DNA from: Chitinophagales bacterium
GTDB taxonomy: Bacteria; Bacteroidota; Bacteroidia; Chitinophagales; CAIOSU01
DNA length: 64,000 nucleotides
NCBI GenBank assembly: GCA_040877935.1
Contig: JBBDNB010000028.1
Span: 1-64,000 of the forward strand
Reading direction: 5' to 3'
Below are positions 3,001 through 51,664 of the stretch, piece by piece; within the stretch, counting starts at the first letter, position 1; each line of letters opens with the position of its first letter. The translations under genes were made by a program, and so were the position numbers. The notes beneath the pieces are model-generated. The model was not told where the DNA came from. It saw only the letters and a list, made by a program, of their open reading frames with translations, and made no database searches.

Positions 3001-3930
3001 AGCTGTGAGTCCGCCCAGTACTACAGGAAAAAAGATCAGCGCAAAAATGCGTTTTCTGCGGTAAAAAAAGCTGATAAAGAAAACCAAAACCAAAGCGGCA
3101 AATGAGGCGGTAAGTATAGCGTCCTGCTTGATCTGTCGGGCGTTGCTCACCGCCACAGCAGCTCCGCCAAAATATTCAGCTTTCAGCCCGGGAAAATCAT
3201 TGTGTAAATCGGTAATTAAGGTATCAAGCGCATCGAGAAAAGCCCCGTTTTCACCAGTTTCATTAGAAGGATTGGCTGTTTCCATGAAAATCATCAGATG
3301 TTTTCCATCCCTTGAAAATATCCTGTTTTGATAAATATTGTAGTTTTCGCCAAACTCCAGTTCAGAAAGCTTATCGAATGCAAGCCCGGTGAGATTGAGC
3401 GGATCTTTCAGAATGTTTTTCTTCATGGCAAAGCCTGCCGGGGAGAGCAGGGCTTTGTAATTGGCCGCTACCGTTTCCTTTAAAGCTGCACTGTCTGTTT
3501 TTTTCAGAATTTCAGCATAATCTGCCTCATTGATAAACAGCGGTAAATTGGCATAAAACTCATCGTACAACTGATTGTAAACATCCTGTGGCAATTCATA
3601 ATTGATCTTGCGGATGTAATTTGGCCTGAAAAGGCTGTCCATTTGTCCAACCAAATGATCACCTGCTTTCAGCAATTGATCTTGATCGCTTTTGCTGCTG
3701 TCTTTGGCATAAATAGTCAGCACCATTTTATCCATAAAGCGGCTGTTCTCAAATACCAGGTTGACCTTCTCTAATTCATCATCATTGGGAATGATCTTGT
3801 TGATGTCCTCTTTGAATTCCAACTGTGAGCTCATCCAGCCTGTTGCAAGCAAAAAAAGCAGCAAAACAATAGCAGCAAAGGCTTTTTGGCTTTTTATTGA
3901 TTCATAAATAAACAGAAATGTACGCTGCAT
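79..3930 (-). CDS. MMPL/RND exporter fused to PlsC-type acyltransferase and SAM methyltransferase
   Basis: A 1283-residue fusion. Residues about 1-830 form an MMPL-type RND exporter: a first TM helix near 20, a periplasmic loop, a TM bundle near 270-410, and a repeat of this plan in the second half. After another hydrophobic segment (about 830-865) comes a PlsC-like lysophospholipid acyltransferase with the NHxxxxD motif (NHQSFLD near 904) and the EGTRS motif near 972. The C-terminus (from about 1100) is a class I methyltransferase with the SAM loop DLGCGYG near 1115. MMPL exporters next to acyltransferases and GT2 proteins are known from aryl-polyene/flexirubin loci, so transport and modification of an acylated lipid or pigment in the inner membrane is inferred. 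The downstream GT2-DUF2062 gene in the window is 13 bases upstream on the same strand and probably co-transcribed. The substrate is unknown. Confidence 0.85.
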   Translation of the reverse strand: MQRTFLFIYESIKSQKAFAAIVLLLFLLATGWMSSQLEFKEDINKIIPNDDELEKVNLVFENSRFMDKMVLTIYAKDSSKSDQDQLLKAGDHLVGQMDSLFRPNYIRKINYELPQDVYNQLYDEFYANLPLFINEADYAEILKKTDSAALKETVAANYKALLSPAGFAMKKNILKDPLNLTGLAFDKLSELEFGENYNIYQNRIFSRDGKHLMIFMETANPSNETGENGAFLDALDTLITDLHNDFPGLKAEYFGGAAVAVSNARQIKQDAILTASFAALVLVFFISFFYRRKRIFALIFFPVVLGGLTALSVLYLIKGEVSAIALGVGSVLLGISIDYSLHIFTHLRKVNNRRKLIRDLSFPILISSITTASAFFCLLLVRSEALHDLGLFAGISVLSAAIFALIILPQLAPDLKREEKKRFSPVGIIEKLSILQLDKSKWILAAVLLLSILFYFSSKKIGFESDLNNMNYVRPELQQTEDRLNRINDYKLKSVFVLAEGATLEKTLQHNEKVQQDIRQLQEKDIVQKYTNPGSFMISDSLQSVRIQKWQNFWAENGRGDSVLQQMQRYGDDFKLKAKALDGLRQQIKGDYQAKGPAAYTKLQELFLDGFVSENQGQSTVINVLKVENEDKEAVYAALEPLEHIFILDKQYLTGRFMEVLKKDFDVLVKYSLLVVFIILLLAYGRIELTLFTLIPVALAWLWTTGIMGLFGMQFNIFNIIISTFVLGLGIDYSIFLMRGLLQEYHKGKRMLESYKTSIILSAFTTLTGIGVLIFAKHPALQSIALMSIIGISSVLFISFSITPLIFRFFVQSRKERGLPPYTLIRWFSTLYTYGYFVVGCLFISFCILILFFVPISKKIKKRFIHKLIQLGTKTLVYGTVIVKTRVQGLENVNWAKPKVIIANHQSFLDILVILMQNPRIIMLTNDWVYNSPFFGFLVRYADFYPVASGYQSSVQHLKDVVNDGYSIAVYPEGTRSPDGQLKRFHKGAFLLAEKLNIPIQPLMIHGSGDVTRKHDFMTDFGQMTLRFLPEISLEDAKFGTDYRERTKIIGKHFKSAYEAMSNEIETPYYFRHKLQSAYLYKSPVLEWYSKIKIRLQDYYVQYDQICPEEGKIVDLGCGYGYLPYMLMLTGRKRQVLGVDFDGEKIETAKNIWLKNERIQFEVADLNNYEIPAADCIILNDVLHYLKYKDQDKLIERCVNALSANGKLIVREGIKDLGDQHRKTEQTEFYSTRLFRFNKQKHEDLYFMRMEDIERNCQKHQLKMEIVERAGNTSNTLILLTRK

Positions 3931-3943
3931 TTTTTCAGATTGA

Positions 3944-5140
3944 TTACATTGTTTTATGCTGTGTCTTTACCGAAGCAAATACATAAGCCACAAATCCCAG
4001 CGCAAGCCCCATTAGTACAGCGAACAGACAACTGCCTAGGGCGTATTGCAGCAAATGGGTCTGCACGATGTTTTGCAAATTGGACAATTGAAATTCTGCA
4101 TTATAGTCAATGTCAGCCGGACTTTCCACAAACAAACCACCCATTTTAAAACTCAGAAAAATTATCCAGGGAATATTGGGCGGAATGCTGATATTGGCAG
4201 CAATGGCCACAATGGCCTTATTGAGCTTTAAAAAATGCCCCAGCAACAAAGCAGCTGCAAGTTGATAACCCCAAATCGGCACAATGCCCATAAAAACGCC
4301 AAAGCCCACCGAAAGCGCTTTTTTCTCTGCCGATTCTTCGGGATTGAATAAGTGGGTTTTGACCAATTGCCGTATATTTTTTTTTTGAAAAGAGCGAATG
4401 AATTGCCAGGGTCTGACAAAAAGAAAAGCCAGCAGCACCAATACGGTATTCAGGATACTGATCCGTGTGAAATCGGGCACTTTCCTGAAATGGGATATAC
4501 GCTCTTCCTGTGGCGGGTAGTAAACCTCTATTGGGACAGGAAGCACTTTAATGCCTGCCCATGCTGCGCGAACCAACACCTCTATCTCAAATTCGTATTT
4601 GCTGGTGAAAAAACGCATTTTACTGAGTTGCTCAATCGGATACAAACGATAGCCCGATTGCGTATCAGGAAGATCAATGCCCGTTTCAATGCGGTACCAG
4701 AAATTGGAAAACTTATGCCCAAAGCTGCTTGTGCCGGGTACATTTTCCTGCAACATGTTTCGTGCCCCTACCAAAAGCACCCCAGGGTTTTCTTCAATTT
4801 TATCTAAAAATACAGGCATATCTTTTGCCAGGTGCTGCCCATCTGAATCGATGCTGATGGCGTAGCGATAGCCGAGTTCCAGGGCTTTTTCAAAACCTTT
4901 GCGCAAGGCCATACCCTTTCCCTGGTTTTGCCCAAAATGCAATATTTCTAAATCGGGATATTTTTTGAGAATCTGACGGGTATTGTCTGTGGAACCGTCA
5001 TTGACGACCAGTATGTGATGGGTGTAATTTAGAATATCCTCAAGAACGGCAGGCAATTTGGCGGCATTGTTGTAGGTGGGCAACAGCACGACTGCTCCCA
5101 GTGCCTCCATTTTATCATCAATTGCGCCAGTTCGATTCAT
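3944..5140 (-). CDS. Glycosyltransferase family 2 protein with C-terminal DUF2062
   Basis: 398 residues. The N-terminal GT2 domain (about 15-230) has the nucleotide-sugar binding stretch LLPTYNN, the VVNDGSTDNT motif and the DxD-type metal motif in DSDGQH near residue 97. It resembles dolichyl-phosphate-mannose-synthase-like enzymes. A hydrophobic segment (about 232-255) follows, then a DUF2062 membrane domain (about 265-395) with several hydrophobic helices. GT2-DUF2062 fusions occur in Bacteroidota next to aryl-polyene or lipid-export genes. It precedes the exporter-acyltransferase-methyltransferase gene by 13 bases on the same strand, so the two likely form an operon acting on one membrane lipid. 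The donor sugar and acceptor cannot be told. Confidence 0.85.
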   Translation of the reverse strand: MNRTGAIDDKMEALGAVVLLPTYNNAAKLPAVLEDILNYTHHILVVNDGSTDNTRQILKKYPDLEILHFGQNQGKGMALRKGFEKALELGYRYAISIDSDGQHLAKDMPVFLDKIEENPGVLLVGARNMLQENVPGTSSFGHKFSNFWYRIETGIDLPDTQSGYRLYPIEQLSKMRFFTSKYEFEIEVLVRAAWAGIKVLPVPIEVYYPPQEERISHFRKVPDFTRISILNTVLVLLAFLFVRPWQFIRSFQKKNIRQLVKTHLFNPEESAEKKALSVGFGVFMGIVPIWGYQLAAALLLGHFLKLNKAIVAIAANISIPPNIPWIIFLSFKMGGLFVESPADIDYNAEFQLSNLQNIVQTHLLQYALGSCLFAVLMGLALGFVAYVFASVKTQHKTM

Positions 5141-7779: not shown

Positions 7780-9240
7780 TTATTCATCTTCCCCCAAATC
7801 CGGTGCCTCCCAGAAATTAAATCCAGGTGCTGCTGGAAATTTATTCCCTCCACTGGTTTCAGACCAGAATTCGGGGAATTTGTCTATGCCCTTTGATATA
7901 TCCAGGACTTCGCTAAGACAGCAGTCACCCGCTTTTTCTATTTTTCGCCAGTAGTCGCTGTCTTTGCTTTTGAACAAAGCCTTAAGTTCATCGCGGTGTT
8001 TCTTGTCATTGCTGAGCAGGCGGCTTTTCCATTCTTCTTTTTCAATATGTTCGCAAAAGCGGTTCCAGAATTTAGGTTCCAGTGCACCCAGCGCAAAATG
8101 ATCGCCCTCTTTGCTTTGGTAAATGCTGTAATTGATGTGTTGTCCGTTCAGCACAAAGCTGTTTTCATCACTGGTTCCCTGCAAATGTGTGGCAGTAAGC
8201 GTTAAAAGCGGGGTAACACCGCCCGTCATATTGATGTCAATGTGCTGTCCTTTTCCGCTTTGGTTTCTTTCTATCAATGCAAACAGAATTTCCTGCACAG
8301 CCTGCATAGATCCGCCAAAAATATCAGCAATCTGTACTGCGGGAACAAAAGGCTTACCGTGCTCATCTTTGATCTGGCTCAACACACCCGACCTTGCCAT
8401 ATAATTGATATCATGGCCGGGTTCGGAAGCGTACTCACCTTTTTGGCCATAGCCACTTATGGACACATAAATCAGGGAAGGATTGACGGCTTTCAGCGTT
8501 TCATAATCCAGGTCAAAGGCATTCATCACCCCGGGACGGAATTGCTCAATTAAAACATCAGCTGATTCAATTCTTTCCAGTAATACTTCTTTTTCCGATT
8601 TGTCCCTAAAAGCGATTTTCCAGCTTTTTTTGTTTCTGTTCAAAGCTTTATAAAACAAACTCTGATCGCCTTCAAAAGGAGGAAATCCCCGAATACTGTC
8701 GGGGCTGGAGGGATCTTCTATTTTTATTACATCCGCACCCCTATCGGCCAATATTCTGCTGCACAAAGGACCGGGCAATAGCTTGGTGAAATCCAAAACC
8801 AGCAAATCTTTCAGAGTGCCGGATTTTTCCGGACGATGTGTTTTTGCTTTTGTTTTATTGGCTTGCGTTGAACCTGAGTGCCGGGTTTTTTCAAATTCGC
8901 TGAATGGCATAAAAGCATTGCTAAAATCCAGCATCAACTCAATATCGCTGACCATAAGGCGACCACTCATCAAGGCTTCCTGTGGGCTTAATTTCCCGGT
9001 TTCCAGATCAACATAGTCTGACAAGGTACTTTCTACCTTGCAGTCAAATACATGCTTTTCTACCGGATAGATTGTCTTGCACACATCCTGATCAATAGCC
9101 ACTATAAAACTCTTGTCCATCTGATCTGAAAATTCAAACAAAACACTAACGGATTTTCGCTTACAGCGTTTTGGCAAAAACCTTTGAGGGATGCTTTTAA
9201 AAATGCTTTGGAAAATGTTTTTTTCTTCCATGATTGCCAT
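7780..9240 (-). CDS. SCP2 domain fused to CaiB/BaiF (alpha-methylacyl-CoA racemase-like) enzyme
   Basis: 486 residues. The first 115 or so look like a sterol-carrier-protein-2 (SCP2) lipid-binding domain, ending in the typical LETGKLSPQEALMSGRLMV stretch. From about 140 the protein is a class III CoA-transferase/racemase of the CaiB/BaiF superfamily: LDFTKLLPGPLCSRILADRG, then GYGQKGEYASEPGHDINYMA, in which the Asp of GHDINY is the family's catalytic residue. The local sequence is closest to alpha-methylacyl-CoA racemases, which epimerise 2-methyl-branched acyl-CoAs such as pristanoyl- or bile-acid-CoA. SCP2 at the N-terminus is an unusual arrangement. The neighbouring acyl-CoA dehydrogenase also carries SCP2, which suggests a shared branched or sterol-like acyl substrate. 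Confidence 0.82.
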   Translation of the reverse strand: MAIMEEKNIFQSIFKSIPQRFLPKRCKRKSVSVLFEFSDQMDKSFIVAIDQDVCKTIYPVEKHVFDCKVESTLSDYVDLETGKLSPQEALMSGRLMVSDIELMLDFSNAFMPFSEFEKTRHSGSTQANKTKAKTHRPEKSGTLKDLLVLDFTKLLPGPLCSRILADRGADVIKIEDPSSPDSIRGFPPFEGDQSLFYKALNRNKKSWKIAFRDKSEKEVLLERIESADVLIEQFRPGVMNAFDLDYETLKAVNPSLIYVSISGYGQKGEYASEPGHDINYMARSGVLSQIKDEHGKPFVPAVQIADIFGGSMQAVQEILFALIERNQSGKGQHIDINMTGGVTPLLTLTATHLQGTSDENSFVLNGQHINYSIYQSKEGDHFALGALEPKFWNRFCEHIEKEEWKSRLLSNDKKHRDELKALFKSKDSDYWRKIEKAGDCCLSEVLDISKGIDKFPEFWSETSGGNKFPAAPGFNFWEAPDLGEDE

Positions 9241-9251
9241 TTGTTAGAAAC

Positions 9252-9278
9252 AAAAAAAGCTGCCCGCAAGGGACAGCT
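9252..9278 (-). terminator. Rho-independent terminator of the acyl-CoA dehydrogenase gene
   Basis: On the minus strand AGCTGTCCC-TTGC-GGGCAGCT forms a stem with one bulged T, followed by seven T. It lies between the acyl-CoA dehydrogenase stop and the racemase start, so the two SCP2-fusion genes are probably at least partly separated in transcription. Confidence 0.75.
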
Positions 9279-9300
9279 CTATATTTTGCGGAATCCTTTA

Positions 9301-10839
9301 TTAGTGCAGTCTTTTAAAGAGCCCCACAAATTTCATCATCTCACCAATATTGGAAATTTTTATTTTCCCCATCATTACTGCCATTTGAGCATTGGTACGG
9401 CCCAATTCTGAGTCTTCATAAACTGCATCTTTGGTTTTCAGCACACATTTGGCTTCACCGTGCAAGCCTTCTTTCAAATCCAGTTTCTGTTCGGCAACTG
9501 TAATAGTCCATTGGCCTCCTCTTTCGCCTTCAATGTCGAAATGAAAGACTGTATCTACTCCTTCTGACTTCTCGCTTTTAAACCTTTCCGGTAATGATTC
9601 AATAATTTCTCTTGCTGTTTCTGGTTTTTTACTCATTTTCTCTTCTTTTAATTTATCTTTTTGGGAATTTTTATAAACGGGCTTGTAAGATACGTCATCG
9701 AGCCATATTTTACCAATGATTTCCTTCATAATTTCAGAAGTTCCGCCCACAATAGTGCCTACCCGTGCGTCTCTGTACATTCTTTCAATCGGGTAGCCGT
9801 GCATGTATCCATTGCCACCAAACATCTGTAAACACACATCAGATGCTTCTTTTGCCAATTCAGTTGCTTTCAATTTCGACATGCAGGATTCCTTTACAGC
9901 ATCTTGTCCATTTTGGTGTTTCCAACTGGCATAATAGCTAAGCTGTCGTACCGATTCCAATTCAGTATATAAATCAATCAGACGATGGCGCAAAATCTGG
10001 AATTTATTTAAAGTTCGGCCAAAAGCTTCCCGTTCAGACATATATTTCAGTGTAGCATCAATTCCGGCTTCAGCACCAGCAACTGATGAAATTCCAGTAA
10101 CCAGTCTTTCCAACTGAAAGCAATCCATGATGTAGAAAAAACCCTGGTTCTCCTCTCCCACCAAATGGTTTTCCGGCACTTTTACATCATCAAAAAAGAG
10201 TTCTGCTGTATCAGAACAGTGCCAGCCCATTTTTTTAAGTTGGTTTTTCTTTACCCCTGGTAAATTTTGATCTACCATGATCAAGCTAATGCCATTGATG
10301 CCATCTTCAAGTTTTGTTTTACAAGCCAGGCAAATAAAATCGCCAAACACCCCATTGGTAATAAAGGTCTTTTGACCATTGATGATGTAATGCCCCTCTT
10401 TTTTGACAGCCGTTGTTTTGATATTGGCCACATCAGAGCCAGCTATCGGTTCTGTTATAGCCAGCGAACCAATCCATTCTCCACTGATGGCTTTGGGCAA
10501 ATATTTTTCTTTCAGGAAATCGCTGCCGGTTCTGAGCAAATGCGCTGTTGACATATACTGATGCACACCCTGGGCTGCTGATACACCTGCATAGCCTGAT
10601 TTTGCCAGTTCTTCGAGCAGGATTACGGAATAGAAAAAATCATTGTCAGTGCCTCCGTATTTTTCAGGAAAATTGATGCCCAGAAAACCCTGATCCCCCA
10701 TTTTAGTCCAGAGGGATTTTGGTATTTTTTTATCTTCTTCCCACTGATCGGCAAAAGGGAGAATTTCCTTTTCTACGAATTGTTTTACACTGCTGCGAAA
10801 CATTTCATGGTCTTCATTGAAATAGGGGTGCTTCATCAT
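9301..10839 (-). CDS. Acyl-CoA dehydrogenase with C-terminal SCP2 domain
   Basis: 512 residues. Positions 1-385 are a complete acyl-CoA dehydrogenase: N-terminal helices, the middle beta domain with LAITEPIAGSDVAN and KTFITNG, and the C-terminal signature QMFGGNGYMHGYPIERMYRD, ending in GTSEIMKEIIG. It oxidises acyl-CoA to 2-enoyl-CoA using FAD. After a charged linker (about 388-405) an SCP2 domain follows (about 405-512) with FHFDIEGERGGQWTITV and NAQMAVMMGKIKISN. The fusion of an ACAD with SCP2 in one chain is uncommon; it suggests handling of a bulky hydrophobic acyl chain. A second ATG lies at codon 2, so the start could be 10836. Confidence 0.88.
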   Translation of the reverse strand: MMKHPYFNEDHEMFRSSVKQFVEKEILPFADQWEEDKKIPKSLWTKMGDQGFLGINFPEKYGGTDNDFFYSVILLEELAKSGYAGVSAAQGVHQYMSTAHLLRTGSDFLKEKYLPKAISGEWIGSLAITEPIAGSDVANIKTTAVKKEGHYIINGQKTFITNGVFGDFICLACKTKLEDGINGISLIMVDQNLPGVKKNQLKKMGWHCSDTAELFFDDVKVPENHLVGEENQGFFYIMDCFQLERLVTGISSVAGAEAGIDATLKYMSEREAFGRTLNKFQILRHRLIDLYTELESVRQLSYYASWKHQNGQDAVKESCMSKLKATELAKEASDVCLQMFGGNGYMHGYPIERMYRDARVGTIVGGTSEIMKEIIGKIWLDDVSYKPVYKNSQKDKLKEEKMSKKPETAREIIESLPERFKSEKSEGVDTVFHFDIEGERGGQWTITVAEQKLDLKEGLHGEAKCVLKTKDAVYEDSELGRTNAQMAVMMGKIKISNIGEMMKFVGLFKRLH

Positions 10840-10910
10840 TTCTATTGCTTAAAACTGAAAATTGAAGCGGCAATATACTAAAAACCTGAATTTGGAAATT
10901 ATTTAACACC

Positions 10911-10976
10911 CACCTGCCCGACTAAAGTCATTCCCGTCCGACTGCTATGGCCGGGCGGACAGGCGGGGAATGGCAG
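10911..10976. repeat. GC-rich interspersed palindromic repeat, copy 1
   Basis: It begins CACCTGCCCGACTAAAGTC and ends AGGCGGGGAATGGCAG, with internal inverted segments (CATTCCC/GGGAATG, GTCCG/CGGAC). A relative with the same ends lies at 15527-15589. It is far richer in GC than its surroundings and sits in the gene-free stretch 10840-11301. Confidence 0.7.
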
Positions 10977-11017
10977 TATGTTCAGAACAATAGTGCTTTC
11001 AACCTTATTTAACCCGC

Positions 11018-11046
11018 ATTATGCAATTGAAAAGCAATTGCATAAT
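11018..11046. other. Perfect 12-bp hairpin
   Basis: ATTATGCAATTG (11018-11029), a 5-nt loop AAAAG, and CAATTGCATAAT (11035-11046). It is the first of a run of three structures between the acyl-CoA dehydrogenase and folD. There is no T-run of terminator type after the stem. Confidence 0.75.
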
Positions 11047-11052
11047 TTGACG

Positions 11053-11107
11053 AATGAAAATCAATAAATATCATGAAATGGAGAATACCAAAATGGTGAT
11101 TTTCATT
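11053..11107. other. Perfect 11-bp inverted repeat
   Basis: AATGAAAATCA (11053-11063) pairs with TGATTTTCATT (11097-11107) across a 33-nt loop. It lies between the 12-bp hairpin and the four-way-junction element. Confidence 0.65.
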
Positions 11108-11114
11108 GTCATGG

Positions 11115-11202
11115 TTAAACCCAGACATTTTGCCCATTTACCGGGCAAAATCGTCTGCCCAGAGGGCAGGTTATTCATTTCTAATGAATAATCTGGGTTT
11201 AA
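11115..11202. other. Cloverleaf / four-way-junction element upstream of folD
   Basis: An outer 11-bp perfect stem (TTAAACCCAGA 11115-11125 with TCTGGGTTTAA 11192-11202) encloses three perfect hairpins: a 9-bp stem at 11127-11135/11143-11151, a 6-bp stem CTGCCC/GGGCAG at 11155-11160/11164-11169, and a 9-bp stem TTATTCATT/AATGAATAA at 11171-11179/11183-11191. Only about five bases between the stems are unpaired. The pattern can fold as RNA on either strand or extrude as DNA. It could be a structured RNA or a small palindromic mobile element; it matches no RNA family I can name. Confidence 0.7.
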
Positions 11203-11235
11203 TCATTATTAAGACTTTATTGCACTCAGGTTAAT

Positions 11236-11243
11236 TATCTTTG
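11236..11243 (+). promoter_or_regulatory. Candidate -7 box of folD-queE
   Basis: TATCTTTG matches TAnnTTTG and lies 58 bases before the folD ATG, just after the folded region. No convincing TTTG -33 box stands at the right distance, so confidence is modest. Confidence 0.45.
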
Positions 11244-11301
11244 CATGCGTTTACCAGTTTTAAGAACTTTGATCCAAATTTTTCTATAAATAAACCAATA
11301 A

Positions 11302-12183
11302 ATGGAATTACTCAGCGGAAAGAAATTAGCAGACGAAATAAAGAAAGAAATAAAAGCCGAGGTAGATCAAATAAAGGCCAATGGAGGCAAAACACCACAT
11401 TTGGCTGCTGTTTTGGTGGGCAATGACGGGGGCAGCGAAACCTATGTCAATTTCAAAATCAAAGATTGCGAAGAGGTTGGTTTTAAATCGAGTTTGGTAC
11501 GTTTCCCCGATTCAGTAACTGAAGAGGAATTGCTAAAATGCGTGCGTGATTTAAACAATGACAGCGATGTTGATGGATACATTGTGCAATTGCCTTTGCC
11601 CAAACACATAGACAAAGACAAAATAAACCTGGCTATAGATTTCAGAAAGGATGTAGATGGTTTTCACCCGATTAATGTTGGGAGAATGGCACAGAACCTG
11701 CCCTGTTATTTACCTGCAACACCTGCAGGAATCGTTGAAATTCTGCGCAGATACAATATAGAAACCAGTGGAAAAAAATGTGTGATTCTGGGGAGAAGCA
11801 ATATTGTGGGTTCCCCCATGAGCATTTTAATGGCGCGCAATTCCAATCCGGGCAACAGCACAGTAACGCTTTGTCACAGCCGTACACAAAATTTAAAAGA
11901 AGAGTGTTTGCAGGCCGATATCCTGATTGCAGCACTTGGGAAACCCGAATTTGTGACTGCCGAAATGGTAAAACAAGGTGCAGTTGTAATTGATGTGGGA
12001 ACTACTCGCGTACCTGATGCGTCTAAGAAATCTGGGTTTAAGCTGAAAGGCGATGTTAAATTTGATGAGGTGGCTGAAAAGTGCAGTTATATTACCCCAG
12101 TGCCGGGTGGTGTGGGGCCAATGACTCGAATTTCGCTATTATTAAATACCTTAAAAGCCGGAAAAAAAGAAATTTACAATTGA
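11302..12183 (+). CDS. folD: Bifunctional methylenetetrahydrofolate dehydrogenase/methenyltetrahydrofolate cyclohydrolase
   Basis: 293 residues, the normal FolD length. It interconverts 5,10-methylene-THF, 5,10-methenyl-THF and 10-formyl-THF in the cytoplasm, using NADP. Visible motifs: [13 protein letters not shown] with the catalytic Lys region, [30 protein letters not shown], the cofactor-binding GRSNIVGSP, and the C-terminal [14 protein letters not shown] at 11302 gives the usual N-terminus. queE starts directly after the stop, so the two are co-transcribed. Confidence 0.97.
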
Positions 12184-43609: not shown

Positions 43610-44944
43610 TTACAATAGTTCGGGCTTATTGCTTCTGATGGTTTCTAAAAAATCACACACATTGCGGTAGCTCACCACATGGTCTTTAAAATACTCTTTT
43701 GCTCTTTTGACCTCACCCATTGTGGCGTCCATACTGTTGAGGATATTCAGCAAATGCATTTTCATATGTCCTTTCTGAATGCCGGTAGTCACCAGGGATC
43801 GCAATGCACCAAAATTATTGGCCAGACCTGCTGTTGCTGCAATCATCATTAATTCAGGGGCTCCGGGATTCCCAAGCATTTCCATTGAGCGCTTTACCAT
43901 GGGGTGTAGATTGGTCAAGCCACCCACCGTGCCGAGTGCCATAGGAACTTCCAGGTAATATTCAAAAATGCCATGCTCCACTTTCATATCGGTTAAACTG
44001 GTGTATTTGCCACTTCTCGCTGCATAAGTATGTCCGCAGGCTTCTACTGCTCGAAAATCATTTCCGGTAGCAAGGACTACTGCATCAATGCCATTAAAAA
44101 TCCCTTTGTTGTGGGTAGTAGCCCGGTGCGGATCGGCTTTGGCTATCATTACTGCTTTGGAAAAACGCTCGGCAATATCTTCAGCTTCCAGTTCATTTTC
44201 AAGCCCTGCCAATTGTTCTACCGGACAGGAAACACTTACACGTACTTTGCATTCGGGCGTATAATTGGAAAGAATAGACATGATTATTCGAATATCCCTC
44301 TCTTCATCTTGCAGATCGGGATAAGTCAAAACCTGTTGTTTTAAAGTGGCTGCAAATTTTTCCAAAACAGAGTTGATAAAATTGGCCCCCATAGAATCAC
44401 AGGTTTCAAAATGTACTTTCAACTGGTGATAACCTTTATCGTGGTCAGTCATATCCACCAACTCAATATCCAAAATTCCTCCTCCCCTCGCTTCCATATT
44501 TCGGGTGAGCGGAGCAGCCTCTTTCAGCAATACAGGTTTTACATCTGTAATGAATTTGCTCAATTTAGCAGTGCTTCCATTCCATATAAAGTGAATCTGC
44601 CCAATTTTTGTAGTACTGATCACTTCTGCTTTAAAACCACCTTTGTCCAGCCAGAATTTGGCACTTTTACAGGCTGCTGCCACTACAGAACTTTCTTCTA
44701 TAACCATTGGTATGCAAAAAAGCTTGCCATTGATCAGAAAGTTTGGGGCAAGTCCATAAGGCATTACAAAATTGCTCACCGTATTTTCACTGAATTCGTC
44801 AAAAAGTTTTTGCTGGGATTTATCAGGATGCCAGTAGCTGCTGTATTCCTGAACTGCAGATTCAGGATCGCTGAAAAATGTATTGGCTGCCCATTCGAGT
44901 TTTGCTTCTTTCGAAAGCTTTGAAAATCCTTTAATTTCTTTCAT
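43610..44944 (-). CDS. mvaA: Hydroxymethylglutaryl-CoA reductase, class II
   Basis: 444 residues. Class II HMG-CoA reductase, which makes mevalonate from HMG-CoA in the biosynthetic direction when it sits with isoprenoid genes. The sequence shows NFVMPYGLAPNFLINGK, ARGGGILDIEL, CDSMGANFIN, THNKGIFNGIDAVVLATGND and the late PMALGTVGGLTNLHPMVKR. It lies 14 bases after the IPP isomerase gene, in the same direction. Cofactor preference (NADH or NADPH) cannot be told. Confidence 0.94.
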   Translation of the reverse strand: MKEIKGFSKLSKEAKLEWAANTFFSDPESAVQEYSSYWHPDKSQQKLFDEFSENTVSNFVMPYGLAPNFLINGKLFCIPMVIEESSVVAAACKSAKFWLDKGGFKAEVISTTKIGQIHFIWNGSTAKLSKFITDVKPVLLKEAAPLTRNMEARGGGILDIELVDMTDHDKGYHQLKVHFETCDSMGANFINSVLEKFAATLKQQVLTYPDLQDEERDIRIIMSILSNYTPECKVRVSVSCPVEQLAGLENELEAEDIAERFSKAVMIAKADPHRATTHNKGIFNGIDAVVLATGNDFRAVEACGHTYAARSGKYTSLTDMKVEHGIFEYYLEVPMALGTVGGLTNLHPMVKRSMEMLGNPGAPELMMIAATAGLANNFGALRSLVTTGIQKGHMKMHLLNILNSMDATMGEVKRAKEYFKDHVVSYRNVCDFLETIRSNKPELL

Positions 44945-44958
44945 TATAACTGTTGTTT

Positions 44959-46014
44959 TTATTTCACTTTTAAAAATGCAGTGGCCACCTTATAAGCATC
45001 CATCTGCTGCTTCACAAATGCTTGAAGCGGTTCATAATTATCTTCCTGTGCATATTTCAGCAGTGCCGATCCCTGGCCATAAACTGCCGGCAATGGACTT
45101 TTATGCACAAAGTAGTAACCGTCTAAAAAATCTTTTACCCCACCGGAAATAATCAGTTTAGAGCATTTTCTTTTGGAGCCTAATTCATGTGTTAATTCGC
45201 TGCACATTTGCAACATATCTTCTGCTGAATGTCCAACACTAACAAGTGGCTCAAATAATTCAGCCTGTTCACCTATTTTTTTCCTGAGCAATTCCACCTT
45301 AGAAAAATTGGTACCTCCATGTGCTGCAAAATCAATGGCTTCTATGGGCAATTGCAATAATGCACGTAGGCTTTCTTTGCCCATTCCCTGCCCTACTTCT
45401 TTTACAATAATGGGATAATCCGCTTTTTCCAGTAAAGCTTTTATTGTTTTAATTGGTGCTTCTGCAATATGATCGCCCTCGGGTTGCAGCCATTCCTGCA
45501 ATGGATTGACATGAATGATCAGGCCATCGGCATCTAATTTCTCTAATAGTGCATCAATCCTGTATGTTTCATTTTCAGTCAGCAGCTGTTCCACCTGTGC
45601 TATTCCCAGGTTGATCAATAGAGCTTGTTCGGTTCCTATTAATGGACGTAGATTGAAATCGTCAAACCTTTCATTGCTGTACAACAAAGAGCGTGTAGAA
45701 CCAAGCCCCATACCAAGACCAAATTCACGACATGCCATTGCCAGGTGTTGATTGATGCGTGCAGCTTTCTCAGTTCCACCAGTCATGCTCGAAATCCACA
45801 GCGGTGCTTTCATCAATTTTCCGGCTATTTTAAATTCAGGTAAAACAGCCTTATCGGGATGGCCGGACAATACCGGTTCATAATAAAAGCGCGGATCTGC
45901 CCCGGAGGAATTTTTCTGCGAAGCAAATGCAAGCTCTATATGATCTTTTTTACGGCCTGCTGCATTGGTATCCGTATTGTTATCTGTTTGAACTGTGAAA
46001 TTTTCCTTTTGCAT
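44959..46014 (-). CDS. fni: Type 2 isopentenyl-diphosphate delta-isomerase
   Basis: 351 residues. FMN-dependent isomerase converting IPP to DMAPP. Motifs: RKKDHIELAF, WISSMTGGTEKAARIN, GLGMGLGSTRSLL, HVNPLQEWLQPEGD, IVKEVGQGMGKESLRALL and ISGGVKDFLDG. It is four bases after the AraC-type regulator gene and 14 before mvaA, so the mevalonate-pathway genes form a single operon with the regulator. Confidence 0.95.
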   Translation of the reverse strand: MQKENFTVQTDNNTDTNAAGRKKDHIELAFASQKNSSGADPRFYYEPVLSGHPDKAVLPEFKIAGKLMKAPLWISSMTGGTEKAARINQHLAMACREFGLGMGLGSTRSLLYSNERFDDFNLRPLIGTEQALLINLGIAQVEQLLTENETYRIDALLEKLDADGLIIHVNPLQEWLQPEGDHIAEAPIKTIKALLEKADYPIIVKEVGQGMGKESLRALLQLPIEAIDFAAHGGTNFSKVELLRKKIGEQAELFEPLVSVGHSAEDMLQMCSELTHELGSKRKCSKLIISGGVKDFLDGYYFVHKSPLPAVYGQGSALLKYAQEDNYEPLQAFVKQQMDAYKVATAFLKVK

Positions 46015-46018
46015 AATA

Positions 46019-47290
46019 CTATTGTTTAGGCATTAATTTTTCGTTTTCATCCAATTGATCATTCTCTTCAGACTTTTTTTTCTCGTTTTCATCATTGCTG
46101 TCTTTTCTCCACTGTGTTGGTGTCTTGCCTGTTACTTCTTTAAAAAGCGTATTGAAAGTCGATTTTGAATTAAACCCACAATCATATGCAATGGCCATAA
46201 TAGTATAATGCGCATATTTTGGGTTCAGCAATCTTTTCTTCACTTCATCCAGGCGATATTGATTGACAAACTCAAAGAAATTCAGCCCCATATGGCTATT
46301 GAAAAGTATGGTCAATTGGTGTTTTGGGATATTTGTTTGTTCTGCCAAATCCTGAAGTGTAAGCATTGGATTCATATAGGGGCGATCACTTTCCATATGC
46401 TCTATTAAATGATCAATCTGTCTTTTTTTAGCTTCCGGAATTTCTTCATCCTCTATTTCAGATGCTTTTGCTTCAACCGGACTATTTTTTATGTTTTTTG
46501 CAATTACCAAATCACTTCTGCCAATTTTGGAAATCCTGAAAACTTTATCTACCAGATCACTGAGCATATTTCTGATGCCGTAATAATTTCCCTTGCTATA
46601 ACTTATGTTTAATGCCCGCTGATTGACGCCAAAGTAGCTTACTGAAAAAGAGAAGATCACAAGCCCGAGGCTGCTGATAAACTGCAAATTATAATTTGAA
46701 GCTTCATCGGGAATACTGATGAGCATATAGAAAAAATAGAGTACGAAAGTCACTACAGAGATAATTGCTACATAATTGAGCCAGAACAAGCGGTTTGAGG
46801 AAGTGTCATAGGAGAAAAACTGAAAGCGGATTTTCTGACGGTATTTTCTCAACTGAATAAATACCAGCGATGAATAAACCAGTATAGAAATCAGGAAAAG
46901 TAAATTCAGCGATATCCCATAATCCAGGTCGGATATACGATTGTCAATGTTTTTAATCACCAGGAAATAAACAGTAAGAAATATAAAAGGAATGAAATGC
47001 ACATAATCCTTTGCTGCCATTTTAGTATCCTCACTGATCAGGTATTTGGAATAGAGGTATAGAAAAGGGCCAAAAGTAAGCGGAATCAAAGCATCTGAGA
47101 AATTGATGTCAAAAAATGGTTTGTGCCTGATTCCATTGGCTACCAGCCAAAACCGCAATGCGATGATCAGCAACCAAAAGACCATAATGCGGTCGGGCAA
47201 CAGTACAGGCCGCTTGGTAAACAGCAAAAACACTGCAAAAATAGCTTGGCTTAAGCCCACATAACACAATATGACCAGATCGTCTGCCAA
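46019..47290 (-). CDS. Membrane-anchored AraC-type regulator in the mevalonate operon
   Basis: 423 residues. The first 235 or so form about seven TM helices (LCYVGLSQAIFAVFLLF, FIPFIFLTVYFLVI, LNLLFLISILVYSSLVFI, VAIISVVTFVLYFFYMLI). After a linker an AraC helix-turn-helix (about 300-400) follows: TLQDLAEQTNIPKHQLTILF and TIMAIAYDCGFNSKSTFNTL, ending VTGKTPTQWRK. It probably binds DNA while embedded in the inner membrane and could sense a membrane lipid. The start is TTG immediately after the DUF2147 stop; the next ATG is 34 codons in. Control of the linked isoprenoid genes is inferred. Confidence 0.85.
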   Translation of the reverse strand: MADDLVILCYVGLSQAIFAVFLLFTKRPVLLPDRIMVFWLLIIALRFWLVANGIRHKPFFDINFSDALIPLTFGPFLYLYSKYLISEDTKMAAKDYVHFIPFIFLTVYFLVIKNIDNRISDLDYGISLNLLFLISILVYSSLVFIQLRKYRQKIRFQFFSYDTSSNRLFWLNYVAIISVVTFVLYFFYMLISIPDEASNYNLQFISSLGLVIFSFSVSYFGVNQRALNISYSKGNYYGIRNMLSDLVDKVFRISKIGRSDLVIAKNIKNSPVEAKASEIEDEEIPEAKKRQIDHLIEHMESDRPYMNPMLTLQDLAEQTNIPKHQLTILFNSHMGLNFFEFVNQYRLDEVKKRLLNPKYAHYTIMAIAYDCGFNSKSTFNTLFKEVTGKTPTQWRKDSNDENEKKKSEENDQLDENEKLMPKQ

Positions 47291-47746
47291 TTATTTTTCT
47301 TTTATTTTTTGCCAAAGTGTTGCACTGCCCAAAAAGCGGAAATACGACCAATAGCCTTTGATGTAAAGGTTTTCGTCTTCATCCATATTCATTATAGCAT
47401 TGTAGGTGTTGCCGTTTTGATAATTGTACAAAGTCCCACCTGTCCACTTTTTGGAATTTTCCTTGTATTTCAAACCATAGAGATAATCGATGCCGATGAT
47501 TTTTCTTGCCCGCATGGAGGCATCAGTGTTGTAGATATCTCTTTTCTTATCGCCATAGCGATCAAGACTGTCTTCAATAGCTACAATACGCGCATGCCAC
47601 AGATCATTTTTTTCATAAAACTCTATGACCATGGATTCTTCTTCATTCTGCCAGTGTCCTTCCAGTAGTTCCTCTGCCGGCTGTGACAATGCTGTAGAAC
47701 TCAGAATAAAAATGTAGAAAAATACTTGTGTAAGAAGCTTTAACAT
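47291..47746 (-). CDS. DUF2147 family secreted protein
   Basis: 151 residues. A signal peptide (QVFFYIFILSSTALSQP) is followed by a beta-rich DUF2147 domain: EGHWQNEEESMVIEFYEKND, then GGTLYNYQNGNTYNAIM and NLYIKGYWSYFRFLGSATLW. Family members are small periplasmic, probably lipid-binding proteins of unknown role. It is the first gene of the unit that continues with the membrane AraC regulator, fni and mvaA. Confidence 0.85.
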   Translation of the reverse strand: MLKLLTQVFFYIFILSSTALSQPAEELLEGHWQNEEESMVIEFYEKNDLWHARIVAIEDSLDRYGDKKRDIYNTDASMRARKIIGIDYLYGLKYKENSKKWTGGTLYNYQNGNTYNAIMNMDEDENLYIKGYWSYFRFLGSATLWQKIKEK

Positions 47747-47768
47747 AATTCAGATACGCTTTATAACG

Positions 47769-47776
47769 CAAAGATA
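47769..47776 (-). promoter_or_regulatory. Candidate -7 box of the DUF2147-regulator-fni-mvaA operon
   Basis: On the minus strand TATCTTTG matches TAnnTTTG 22 bases before the DUF2147 start. It lies in the 95-base gap after the polyprenyl synthase gene and marks the start of a separate transcription unit. Confidence 0.5.
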
Positions 47777-47841
47777 CTTTTATAATAATTTGGAACTATC
47801 GTGCCGCTTTTAAATAAATTACTTTCAATCCCAACTCCCAA

Positions 47842-48837
47842 CTAATACTTTCTATTGTAAACACTTTCGGCAAGCCCAAATAAAGCCTGCTTGTTTTCAA
47901 GATCAAGTGAAACACCTTCTAAAGCAGTTACAGCACGATTGTAATAATTTTCCATTTCTGATTCCACAGCAGATTTAGCACCAGATAGTTCAAATATTTC
48001 CAGTGTCTGCTTTACTTTTTGCTCAGCATCATCTGAATTTTCCAGCTGCATTAAAATTTCCCTGTCGGCTTTATCAGCTCTGTGCTGCGCTTCAATTAGC
48101 AAAAGTGTCTTTTTATTGCGCAAAATGTCTCCGCCTCTCTTCTTTCCAAAGCTTTCCATATCGCCAAAAGCATCTAAATAATCGTCTTTCAACTGAAAGG
48201 AAATGCCCAGGTTGAGTCCAAAATCATAAATCTTGCGAATGTTTTCAGAACTTGCACCCGCAACAATAGCCCCCATAGCAGCCGAAGCCGCCAATAGCAC
48301 AGAAGTTTTCCAGGCAATCATTTTCAAATATTCCTGCTTAGTGACCTGCTTTCGGGTTTCAAAATCCATATCCATGCTTTGGCCTTCAATCACCTGAATG
48401 GTAACTTCATTAAATTGTCCTATAAGTTGCCTGTAAGTATAGCCCTCATACTTTAAAAGCGACTGAAATGCCAGGGATGTCAAAAGATTTCCGGCATTAA
48501 TGGCCGTATTTATTCCATAGCGTAAATGCGTTGCTTCAACTCCTCTTCTCACATCTGCTGCATCCATAATATCGTCATGGATAAGCGTAGAATTGTGGTA
48601 CAATTCCACGGCCATAGCTGCGGGGATCAGGTTTTGGGCCTCTGCACCAAACATTTGCCCACAGTGCATTAGCAACATCGGGCGAATGCGTTTGCCTCCT
48701 GTACTGAGTATATGATTGGCCGCACCAGTCAATTCTTCAGAAGCTGCATTGATCTTGTTTTTTTCAAGTTGAATTTCGAAAAGCTCCAACAGCTTCGCAC
48801 TACTGAGTGCTTTTTGTTCTTTCAATAATGTATCCAT
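47842..48837 (-). CDS. Polyprenyl diphosphate synthase (short-chain, FPP/GGPP type)
   Basis: 331 residues from the ATG at 48837; an upstream ATG at 48909 would overlap the squalene epoxidase gene. It has both Asp-rich motifs: LIHDDIMDAADVRRG and FQLKDDYLDAFGD, and the KTSVLLAASAAMGAIVAG stretch. These enzymes condense IPP with DMAPP or longer allylic diphosphates. Its neighbours suggest farnesyl diphosphate supply for squalene, though a GGPP or longer product cannot be ruled out. It starts four bases after squalene epoxidase. Confidence 0.92.
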   Translation of the reverse strand: MDTLLKEQKALSSAKLLELFEIQLEKNKINAASEELTGAANHILSTGGKRIRPMLLMHCGQMFGAEAQNLIPAAMAVELYHNSTLIHDDIMDAADVRRGVEATHLRYGINTAINAGNLLTSLAFQSLLKYEGYTYRQLIGQFNEVTIQVIEGQSMDMDFETRKQVTKQEYLKMIAWKTSVLLAASAAMGAIVAGASSENIRKIYDFGLNLGISFQLKDDYLDAFGDMESFGKKRGGDILRNKKTLLLIEAQHRADKADREILMQLENSDDAEQKVKQTLEIFELSGAKSAVESEMENYYNRAVTALEGVSLDLENKQALFGLAESVYNRKY

Positions 48838-48841
48838 GTTC

Positions 48842-50281
48842 TTATTTTTTTCGGTTGAATTTATCAGCAATATTAAATGCCGTCCGCATAAACAAACCCT
48901 GATCTTCATTTAGAATCAGGGGAGAAAGTATGCCACTTGCCCTGCCGAGCATTTTCCCTGCACTGCTAAAGCCTTTGGCAATTCCCCTTTGTTTTATTTG
49001 CCGGGATGCTCCGTAAAGCGCCACTGCAAAAAAATGGCGGAGCAAAACCTGTTGATCACGATTGAGGCCGGCAAGCAAACCAAGCGGTTCTTCTGCATAA
49101 AGCCCTCCTCTTTTTAAATAATCAAAACAAGCTGTTGCCAATTCGGGATCAGAAAACACCTGGTTAAGTGCATCAGCAAGGATATTAATGCTTGCATTTT
49201 CCTTGCGCTGTTGATAATATCCCGCAATCAAATTTCCGGGTGTCTTAGGCTCCCCATTTTCACGTATTTTAATTAAAATATTGCCCAAATTCCGGGCATC
49301 TGTAAGCCCGGCTGTCATGCCCCCGCCTGTTAACGGATTGCGCATATTCAAGGCATCTCCGAGCAATACGAGTCCTTCTTTTTGCTGTACTTTTCCGGGC
49401 AACATATGGCTGGGCATCATCTGAAAATCAGCTTTTTCTACTGCTCTGTCGAATGCGGAATACATATGCCCCGGCAATTGTGTCATAATATTCTCATAGA
49501 GCCATTCTTTCATAGCTGCACTTTTCAGTGCTGGCCCTTTGTCCTTTCTTTCAATCAAAAGCCGGATGGTATTTGTAGCAGTAGGGTATGCCAGAAATTT
49601 TGCTTTTTGATCAATAAAAACATGCCCGTAATTTGAAAAAGGCAGGGTGGTATCGTGCAGCAGCATTCCAATAAAAAAACCTGTAACTTTTGGCTGACAC
49701 AAATGCAGCTCTTTTCTCAAAACTGAAAAGAAACCATCGCTGATCACAGTATATGCAGCAGTAATTTTGTTGGATTGAGTTACATTGTTAGACTTGATGC
49801 GCACTCCTGTTGCTTTGTTTCCCTCATAGCAAATTTGCTCTGCTTTAGCCTCAAATATTTTTACATTATGAATGCCTGAAACTTCTGCTCTAAGTGCTTC
49901 CAACAAATACTTGTTGCGCAGACCATAGCCTTTGGGCATTCCGTCTTTTTCAGGATAATTCAGCAACAGATGATCCCCTTTGTGGAAAACAGCATAACCA
50001 TTGACAGGCTGTGCATCAATATTTTCCAGCACAGAAGACAAGCCCATCAATTCAAGCTGCCGTACACCATCGGGCTGCAAGAGTTCACCAACAATCCTGT
50101 CCGGTGCTTCCCACTGTTTTTCTACCAATGCAATTTTCAAACCTTTTCTACCGAGATAAGCGGCAAGTGCAGCTCCGGTAACCCCGGCACCGATTATACA
50201 AAGGTCAAAATGATCTTTTACTGCCGAAACAGGATTGAAAATTCCTGAAATCGGTTTTTTATCAAAAACTACAGTTCCCAT
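48842..50281 (-). CDS. Squalene epoxidase (squalene monooxygenase)
   Basis: 479 residues. It matches eukaryotic ERG1/SQLE along its length: the FAD-binding GAGVTGAALAAYLGRKG, then APDRIVGELLQPDGVRQLEL, NIDAQPVNGY, the FAD ribityl site LLGDALNMRNPLTGGGMTAG and the C-terminal block LGLLAGLNRDQQVLLRHFFA. It should convert squalene to 2,3-oxidosqualene with O2 and FAD. It begins four bases after squalene synthase and four bases before the polyprenyl synthase gene, so the three are one operon. Squalene epoxidases are rare in bacteria and mark sterol synthesis. An oxidosqualene cyclase is not in the window. Confidence 0.92.
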   Translation of the reverse strand: MGTVVFDKKPISGIFNPVSAVKDHFDLCIIGAGVTGAALAAYLGRKGLKIALVEKQWEAPDRIVGELLQPDGVRQLELMGLSSVLENIDAQPVNGYAVFHKGDHLLLNYPEKDGMPKGYGLRNKYLLEALRAEVSGIHNVKIFEAKAEQICYEGNKATGVRIKSNNVTQSNKITAAYTVISDGFFSVLRKELHLCQPKVTGFFIGMLLHDTTLPFSNYGHVFIDQKAKFLAYPTATNTIRLLIERKDKGPALKSAAMKEWLYENIMTQLPGHMYSAFDRAVEKADFQMMPSHMLPGKVQQKEGLVLLGDALNMRNPLTGGGMTAGLTDARNLGNILIKIRENGEPKTPGNLIAGYYQQRKENASINILADALNQVFSDPELATACFDYLKRGGLYAEEPLGLLAGLNRDQQVLLRHFFAVALYGASRQIKQRGIAKGFSSAGKMLGRASGILSPLILNEDQGLFMRTAFNIADKFNRKK

Positions 50282-50285
50282 AATT

Positions 50286-51398
50286 TCAGGCCACTAAAGC
50301 AGCCTTATTTTTTTCAGCAATCCTTTTCAAGACTACTTTCAATGACTGGTCAATTGCGGTCTCCCCGTTTATTTCCCACTGATCTAAAATTGATGCACAC
50401 AGGCTGAGGAAGCTTTGCATATCATTGCAATCGAGAAATACTTTAGTGCTTTCCTTTTTGCTGATTTTCACATTTTCAGTAAAAACCAATGGGTTGTTGT
50501 ACAATTTTTTCAGTGTGGCCAATGCCATTACCTGTGGAATGGCACAAAAACGAAATACAGATTTATCCTGCAAAAGCTCCATATAATCAATACATTCATT
50601 GAAATGCTCCAGTGCATTCAGGATCATTTCGTTCAGGCACATAAGTGCTTCGGGGCTTTCCGGTTTTGCCTGCAGTTCCGATGGCGCATTGCAGTATTTT
50701 TCCCAGATTTCTTCCGGCCAGAAAAAGCGGCCTGAATCCAGGTCTTCGGCAAAATCCCTGGTAATATTGGTTTTCTGAAGAAACAGCCCCATTGCATTGG
50801 ATTTTTCCCACTTATCTACCAATTCCTTACTTTCAGTTCCCGAGGCTACAAAAAGCTCCGATAAGCCCATACCGACCAATCCGGCCACATAATGACAATA
50901 TTCATTGTAATCGTGCTTGCTTTCTACCGGTGTCTGACTGTAATAGGCCATGCCCTGCCCCATTTTTGAGGCTATTTCATGAATGGTATTTCTGTAGGGT
51001 TCTGGCAATTGATTGTACATTTTAGCTACCAGGCCGTAGTTTTCGAGAAGATTTCTGTAATCGGGATGATCACCAATATTTTGGAGTGAAAAACTTTCAT
51101 CCCCCAAGTGCTTGTGGAATGCATGCAAGTACTTCAAGCGAATGCTAAGCGGGATTTCAAGATCATCTTCTATGCTGTCAAGCGCCCTGAGCGAAAGGTA
51201 AAAGACACAAACACCATCCCGTAATTCCGGTCTTAATTCACGTATGACTACAGCAAATGAACGGGACACTTTTTCAAGGGTCTCATAGCAATACTGCTCT
51301 GCTTCATTTTTGCTGATTGTATTTGGGAGTATGCTGCTTTTGGCGTATTTGCCAATTTGGCGAACGCGCTCTTTATACTTTAGGATTGAATTTGACAT
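50286..51398 (-). CDS. Squalene synthase, eukaryote-like
   Basis: 370 residues from ATG 51398 (another ATG at 51422 is possible). It joins two farnesyl diphosphates to squalene. The sequence follows the ERG9 family, not the bacterial HpnCDE set: VSRSFAVVIREL, FYLSLRALDSIEDD (first Asp-rich motif), YCHYVAGLVGMGLSELF, GLFLQKTNITRDFAED (second Asp-rich motif), FFWPEEIWEKY and FCAIPQVMALATL. The C-terminal TM helix of eukaryotic enzymes is missing. The pairing with squalene epoxidase supports synthesis of oxidosqualene. Confidence 0.94.
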   Translation of the reverse strand: MSNSILKYKERVRQIGKYAKSSILPNTISKNEAEQYCYETLEKVSRSFAVVIRELRPELRDGVCVFYLSLRALDSIEDDLEIPLSIRLKYLHAFHKHLGDESFSLQNIGDHPDYRNLLENYGLVAKMYNQLPEPYRNTIHEIASKMGQGMAYYSQTPVESKHDYNEYCHYVAGLVGMGLSELFVASGTESKELVDKWEKSNAMGLFLQKTNITRDFAEDLDSGRFFWPEEIWEKYCNAPSELQAKPESPEALMCLNEMILNALEHFNECIDYMELLQDKSVFRFCAIPQVMALATLKKLYNNPLVFTENVKISKKESTKVFLDCNDMQSFLSLCASILDQWEINGETAIDQSLKVVLKRIAEKNKAALVA

Positions 51399-51664
51399 AA
51401 TACTTAGCTTTTGATTGTTCATTAGCTAAAGTAAGTGTCAACAAGAGGCGTAGTGGCTGCTTAAACAAAAAAAAGTGACTTATAGTAGCAAAAGGAAGTA
51501 TTTGATTGATTATCAGAAAGTTAACGAAGTTCGTTTAAAACAATCAAGCGTTTGAATGAATCAATTTTTAGTCAAGCTGAACTTCAATGCTGTGGATAAC
51601 CATAAATCTGGGATTTGTAGTAAAAAGTTTATCACAAAAAAACATTTTAAAATCTATGTTTACC

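Follow-up and report, generated by a model that had tools for sequence, protein, structure and literature searches.

The stretch of DNA analysed here (the window; 64,000 nucleotides of contig JBBDNB010000028.1, assembly GCA_040877935.1, from a Chitinophagales bacterium) contains an operon encoding squalene synthase (SQS) and squalene epoxidase (SQE), and the same genome encodes an oxidosqualene cyclase (OSC) with cycloartenol-type residues. These sequences make it very probable that the bacterium synthesises sterol-type membrane lipids of its own, an ability more often linked with eukaryotes. The window lies on contig C28, one of the 63 contigs of a 4.03-Mb draft genome (G000) that is 98.75% complete with 0.94% contamination; the rest of this genome was searched one protein family at a time, and 398 genomes of the same order served as the comparison sample. 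A sequence-only reading of the operon had proposed that the organism makes oxidosqualene and possibly sterols, and this gained support from the sterol-type cyclase found elsewhere in the genome, on contig C56; the opposite outcome, in which the genome would lack a cyclase and the epoxidase would group with unrelated FAD monooxygenases, was not observed.

Squalene synthase and squalene epoxidase in a seven-gene operon

Re-translation of the open frames revealed seven intact genes on the minus strand spanning 43610-51398, which were assigned to families by Pfam, NCBIfam and PDB comparisons. In the order of transcription they encode SQS, SQE, a prenyl diphosphate synthase, a DUF2147 protein, an AraC regulator, a type 2 isopentenyl-diphosphate (IPP) isomerase and an HMG-CoA reductase, with successive intergenic gaps of 4, 4, 95, 0, 4 and 14 bases; the 4-base gap between SQE and the prenyl synthase presumes that the latter starts at its second ATG. 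The SQS (50286-51398, minus strand; start likewise taken at the second ATG, the first placing it at 51422) is of the eukaryotic ERG9/FDFT1 type according to TIGR01559, PF00494 and PDB matches. It scored 383.5 bits against the NCBIfam equivalog TIGR01559, passing the cut-off of 286.75, and stayed far under the cut-offs of the hopanoid-type models HpnD (55 of 278.6 bits) and HpnC (39.6 of 250.45 bits); its top PDB matches were the T. cruzi and human squalene synthases (E 1e-82 to 1e-78).

The SQE (48842-50281, minus strand) matched the Pfam SE domain with 224 bits (cut-off 20.1; 2.3e-66) over residues 175-435, and its top PDB match, human squalene monooxygenase (SQLE; E 4.6e-66, residues 26-459 of 479 aligned), was nearer by 50 orders of magnitude than the next ones, other FAD monooxygenases (2e-15). 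The motifs GAGVTG, DGFFS and GDALNMRNPLTGGG line up with the human enzyme, and the family motif GD(A/S)xNMRHPLTGGGMT accompanies the SE domain, here as GDALNMRNPLTGGGMT. By family assignment the product is a squalene epoxidase of the SQLE/ERG1 type, for which O2-dependent conversion of squalene to 2,3-oxidosqualene is predicted. The tree of epoxidases placed it within the squalene epoxidase family, far from unrelated FAD monooxygenases.

A cycloartenol-type cyclase on a separate contig

A PF13243 search of the genome revealed one cyclase gene only, an open frame of 763 aa on contig C56. The genes on either side encode an MFS transporter and an acyl-CoA-reductase-like protein, and the surroundings are otherwise unremarkable for a bacterium. 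The cyclase protein matched human lanosterol synthase (LSS) at 2e-213 and squalene-hopene cyclase only at 3e-42, carries the sterol-type DCTSE (WPITDCTSE) and not the DXDD of squalene-hopene cyclase, and passed the broad model TIGR01787 with 681.6 bits (cut-off 322.7). Alignment in human LSS numbering gave the triad Y381/H449/I453 (GYNGSQ and HDWPITDC, versus GTNGSQ and CGWIVSDC in the human enzyme); in all the bacteria that Wei et al. 2016 (PMC4919349) tested, I453 was the mark of cycloartenol and V453 that of lanosterol. The PF13243 search found no second cyclase in the genome and hence no squalene-hopene cyclase, so that this family would draw no squalene off into hopanoids.

A 44-row cyclase tree grouped the sequence with the Crocinitomicaceae (Taishania, Fluviicola) lineage inside a Bacteroidota set (SH-aLRT 98), at a clear distance from human LSS. 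As a separate observation, the Crocinitomicaceae cyclases at four loci (L123, L125, L126 and L128) have V at 453 (HAWAVT or HAWPVT), although Fluviicola taffensis was reported as a cycloartenol maker with I453; cyclase products may differ within this clade.

Co-occurrence, synteny and origin

The cyclase was found in 25 of the 398 genomes and the epoxidase also in 25, and the two lists, spread over nine genera, are identical. Most of the relatives examined have SQS and SQE next to each other, usually beside a divergent cyclase gene, and in several of them the prenyl synthase, IPP isomerase and HMG-CoA reductase genes join the cluster; one genome (G054) has the cyclase, AraC, DUF2147, prenyl synthase, SQE, SQS, isomerase and reductase genes all in one stretch. 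The window operon looks like a variant of such clusters with the cyclase placed elsewhere. This perfect but patchy co-occurrence of epoxidase and cyclase offers a clear system for the spread and loss of bacterial sterol synthesis. A record titled Glaciecola amylolytica, a gammaproteobacterium (CP034120.1, locus L127), has the SQS-SQE-isomerase-reductase-prenyl synthase-OSC cluster of Fluviicola/Taishania and groups among them; it is probably a mislabelled genome.

The sequence-only reading had also suggested that SQS and SQE were acquired together from a eukaryote or a sterol-making bacterium. No support emerged for direct uptake from a eukaryote, since the epoxidase and the cyclase fall in bacterial clades, in trees where eukaryotes are minimally represented (human, plus one PDB cyclase as outgroup). 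Exchange among bacteria is indicated for a single genome of the sample (G053, locus L110), whose SQE and OSC both group with Methylococcaceae with a support of 100 in each tree, and thus the SQE-OSC pair appears to move together between bacterial phyla; in this genome the OSC carries V453, which sets it apart from the rest of the order. In GC and GC3 both the operon and the cyclase gene fall within the range of the surrounding genes, which gives no sign of recent transfer of either; a candidate methyltransferase gene on contig C7, described below, is slightly richer (GC3 0.50).

Other genes of the operon and the AraC/DUF2147 pair

The remaining operon genes, all on the minus strand, include the trans polyprenyl (GGPP/FPP-type) diphosphate synthase (47842-48837; Pfam polyprenyl_synt 3.4e-73), which reached no NCBIfam equivalog cut-off, the type 2 isopentenyl-diphosphate delta-isomerase (IDI2; 44959-46014; TIGR02151 2.5e-57), which is syntenic in relatives and scored 194 bits, under the equivalog cut-off of 281.3, and the class II HMG-CoA reductase (HMGR; 43610-44944; Pfam HMG-CoA_red 1.5e-84), which passed the cut-off of TIGR00532. 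The first reading had named these three enzymes together with the ERG9-type synthase, the SQLE-type epoxidase and the 4-base gaps on both sides of the latter, and the family comparisons agree with it throughout, with the isomerase below its cut-off and the second gap dependent on the second-ATG start. Absent from that reading were the two genes between prenyl synthase and isomerase: one for a DUF2147 protein with a signal-peptide-like N-terminus (47291-47746; Pfam PF09917, 78 bits) and one for a candidate AraC-type regulator (46019-47290; HTH_18 8.9e-20), whose N-terminal half is hydrophobic as judged by eye and probably has multiple transmembrane segments.

Besides the window genome, four others (G149, G054, G008 and G010) have AraC and DUF2147 genes together beside SQS/SQE, and in three (G020, G034 and G060) the two genes occur together with no SQS/SQE within short flanks. 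A hand count of full-length or split strong matches found the AraC subfamily in 9 of the 25 cyclase-positive and 5 of the 373 cyclase-negative genomes, and the subfamily is thus enriched in the former, not exclusive to them. Five cyclase-negative genomes, of which four belong to the same family as the window genome, carry the pair as well, so it is either older than the pathway or independent of it. DUF2147 was rejected as a sterol-specific marker, the family being present in 290 of the 398 genomes; the DUF2147 copies of sterol clusters are closer to the window copy, and 0 of 30 other high-scoring loci had an AraC neighbour. The AraC protein is a candidate regulator of the operon, and the recurrent pair a candidate for sterol-gene regulation in Bacteroidota.

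Candidate downstream steps

A search of the genome for Rieske-family proteins led to a locus on contig C7 (L267) with a candidate sterol C-24 methyltransferase gene (SMT; 9694-10674; 326 aa) and, directly downstream, a gene for a Rieske oxygenase with a KshA_C domain (10679-11857). The SMT combines Sterol_MT_C (PF08498; 5.8e-22, 78 bits, cut-off 21.7) with Methyltransf_11 (64 bits), the domain pair of the SMT/ERG6 family, and contains the regions YERGWGQSFHF, VLDVGCGIMGP and YAIEALCHAP. The Rieske oxygenase has an N-terminal hydrophobic helix and, as top PDB match, 3-ketosteroid 9-alpha-hydroxylase (1e-37); KshA_C is a class of steroid-acting oxygenases, and the protein, which we take to resemble the cholesterol 7-desaturase DAF-36/Neverland, is not SdmA (NCBIfam NF052579, 76.3 of 600). 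This stretch is a possible sterol-modifying locus; a divergent short-chain dehydrogenase gene also belongs to it (8574-11857), and the same contig bears a suf operon. The flanks of the other OSC loci examined yielded no SMT.

Contig C39 encodes an ERG4/ERG24-family protein (PF01222, 164.7 bits, cut-off 27; top PDB match delta(14)-sterol reductase, 3.6e-36), whose gene follows a short-chain dehydrogenase gene and overlaps with it. Matches to this family above 100 bits were counted by hand in 20 of the 25 cyclase-positive and ~18 of the 373 cyclase-negative genomes, an association that is suggestive only, because many of the positives belong to one family. Two further observations concern this gene: an aldehyde dehydrogenase gene extends the overlapping series (L268, 9332-12602), and members of the 360-aa reductase subfamily share 57-64% identity throughout the order, including genomes without OSC.

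Genes for C-14 demethylation, proposed by the sequence-only reading as a check on sterol synthesis, were not found in the genome. The CYP51 helix-I motif is AGQHTS. The only P450 found has AGHETS and profiles like terpene P450s such as albaflavenone monooxygenase, and was rejected as CYP51, leaving no CYP51-like P450 in the genome; nor was there any match to the C-8,7 sterol isomerase EBP (PF05241). The genome has eleven genes of the FA_hydroxylase family, including a neighbouring pair on contig C48; several of those profiled best match the ornithine-lipid hydroxylase OlsE, all under its cut-off, two (C44 and C12b) reached only ~25 bits with the OlsE model, and as ERG25/ERG3 candidates none could be assigned and none excluded. 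A cursory look for DHCR24 through FAD_binding_4 yielded one MurB-like match and one of alditol-oxidase/gulonolactone-oxidase type in appearance. Contig C62 encodes a geranylgeranyl-reductase-like protein, a broad family, with the YxWxFP motif; such a protein acts as C-24 sterol reductase in some myxobacteria (PMC12004948).

Two other loci of the window were noted. At 7780-10839, a CoA-transferase family III gene stands beside a gene for an acyl-CoA dehydrogenase fused to an SCP-2 sterol-transfer domain, and these genes could be for isoprenoid or sterol side-chain catabolism. At 79-5140, a 1283-aa MMPL transporter-acyltransferase-methyltransferase fusion is encoded next to a glycosyltransferase, an arrangement like that of flexirubin/aryl polyene clusters.

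Proposed pathway and alternatives

We observed genes, families, product-determining residues, linkage and co-occurrence, and from these we infer activities, the order of steps, the exact product and the role of the regulator. HMGR and IPP isomerase would feed the mevalonate pathway and the prenyl synthase may supply farnesyl diphosphate, two molecules of which SQS would couple to squalene; the FAD-dependent SQE would then use O2 to form 2,3-oxidosqualene, and the C56 cyclase would convert this to cycloartenol. We hold with good confidence that this core route from squalene through oxidosqualene to cycloartenol operates. That C-24 methylation is added to it is about as likely as not, or a little less so: the C7 SMT would probably methylate the side chain at C-24 (24-methylenecycloartanol type), and the Rieske oxygenase and the ERG24-family reductase may further alter rings or side chain. 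The 14-alpha-methyl group is expected to stay, because no CYP51-type enzyme is present, and control of the operon may lie with the membrane AraC protein. The complete proposal, namely de novo synthesis of C-24-alkylated sterols by a plant-like cycloartenol route with the 14-alpha-methyl group retained, perhaps with Rieske modification and under the AraC regulator of the SQS-SQE operon, is tentative.

Several observations weigh against the proposed pathway, its core included. The pathway genes are scattered over separate contigs of the draft (C28, C56, C7 and C39), and the branch of the window epoxidase is long (1.09), its place within the SQE family lacking support. The cyclase is under the cut-off of the NCBIfam 2,3-oxidosqualene cyclase model TIGR03463 (678.3 of 851 bits), and was therefore filed as a member of the squalene/oxidosqualene cyclase family with cycloartenol-type residues, not as a TIGR03463 member; among its tree neighbours of the Fluviicola lineage are V453 enzymes. 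The ERG24 family is also represented in the ~18 cyclase-negative genomes counted above, so its role may not be sterol-specific.

A minimal pathway like that of Fluviicola, ending at cycloartenol, with the SMT, Rieske oxygenase and ERG24-like reductase acting on other or external sterols or on other isoprenoids, is a serious possibility that we regard as rather doubtful. Fluviicola taffensis produces cycloartenol alone (PMC4919349), and the ERG24-family genes of genomes without OSC, the position of OSC on a different contig from SMT and Rieske oxygenase, and the lack of both a CYP51-like P450 and EBP in the genome are consistent with such a pathway; an SMT gene adjoining a sterol-type Rieske gene in a cyclase-bearing genome, however, is most simply explained by a single pathway. 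The C7 methyltransferase might instead act on squalene or another isoprenoid, as the SMT-related enzymes of Botryococcus do. Squalene would be produced in the same cell, and the Sterol_MT_C domain alone leaves the substrate unfixed, but the adjoining oxygenase belongs to the steroid-acting KshA_C class, and we consider this reading unlikely.

Somewhat less likely still is that the cyclase yields another oxidosqualene-derived triterpenol (lanosterol, parkeol or an arborane-like pentacycle) rather than cycloartenol. Small changes in oxidosqualene cyclases shift their products, and the product of the Eudoraea cyclase is reported to be arborane-like. Eudoraea is also a member of Bacteroidota, with a cyclase of a separate group (PMC4919349). 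Against a different triterpenol stand the complete Y381/H449/I453 triad and the supported clade shared with the Fluviicola/Taishania lineage, one member of which was reported to make only cycloartenol (PMC4919349). Contamination of the draft assembly by eukaryotic or other bacterial DNA, which the likeness to eukaryotic enzymes might suggest, is highly improbable given Bacteroidota-type genes across the 64-kb window, no introns, 4-base operon spacing, GC and GC3 near those of neighbouring genes, and housekeeping genes (DEAD helicase, ribBA, suf operon) on the cyclase and SMT contigs.

Comparison with known systems

Sterol synthesis in Bacteroidota is already known from Fluviicola, Eudoraea has the genes, and bacterial SMTs are known from other groups. 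We found no description in the open-licence papers searched of a cycloartenol-type cyclase, an SMT and a steroid-type Rieske oxygenase in one Bacteroidota genome, and as far as those papers show, side-chain methylation by Bacteroidota with the cycloartenol route is undescribed. Side-chain-alkylated steranes serve as biomarkers of eukaryotes and sponges; if the proposed pathway is true, Bacteroidota with their own cyclase and SMT would be a further possible bacterial source of them.

Sterol biosynthesis in Methylococcales and Myxococcota involves OSC-SQE, CYP51 and SdmAB (PMC10202945). Their OSC and SQE are homologous to those of the window genome, and OSC and SQE are adjacent in Methylococcales; in the Methylococcales loci examined a P450 lies near OSC, which carries V453 (lanosterol type), whereas the window genome has neither feature. 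Bacterial SMTs from clusters of uncultured bacteria alkylate C-24 in vitro (2023; PMC10070321), and there too OSC and SMT occur in one bacterial genome. Those clusters come from sponge symbionts, Sandaracinus, Chlamydiae and others, the main text not containing the string 'Bacteroid', and several include C-4 and C-14 demethylation genes, in contrast to the window genome, where none of CYP51 type was found. Eudoraea adriatica, in the same phylum, also combines SE with OSC, but its OSC is annotated as lanosterol-type and belongs to a different group from that of Fluviicola (PMC4919349).

Fluviicola taffensis, also of Bacteroidota, has the squalene epoxidase Fluta_3221 and the cycloartenol synthase Fluta_3214 and makes only cycloartenol (Wei et al. 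2016, PMC4919349). It shares with the window genome an SQE, a cycloartenol-type cyclase and the lack of a C-14 demethylase, and the window-genome cyclase lies within a supported clade with sequences of its lineage. The window genome differs from it in having OSC away from the SQS-SQE operon and DUF2147 and AraC genes inside that operon, and in its SMT, Rieske oxygenase and ERG24-family reductase; the description of Fluviicola, by contrast, reported no downstream genes (PMC4919349).

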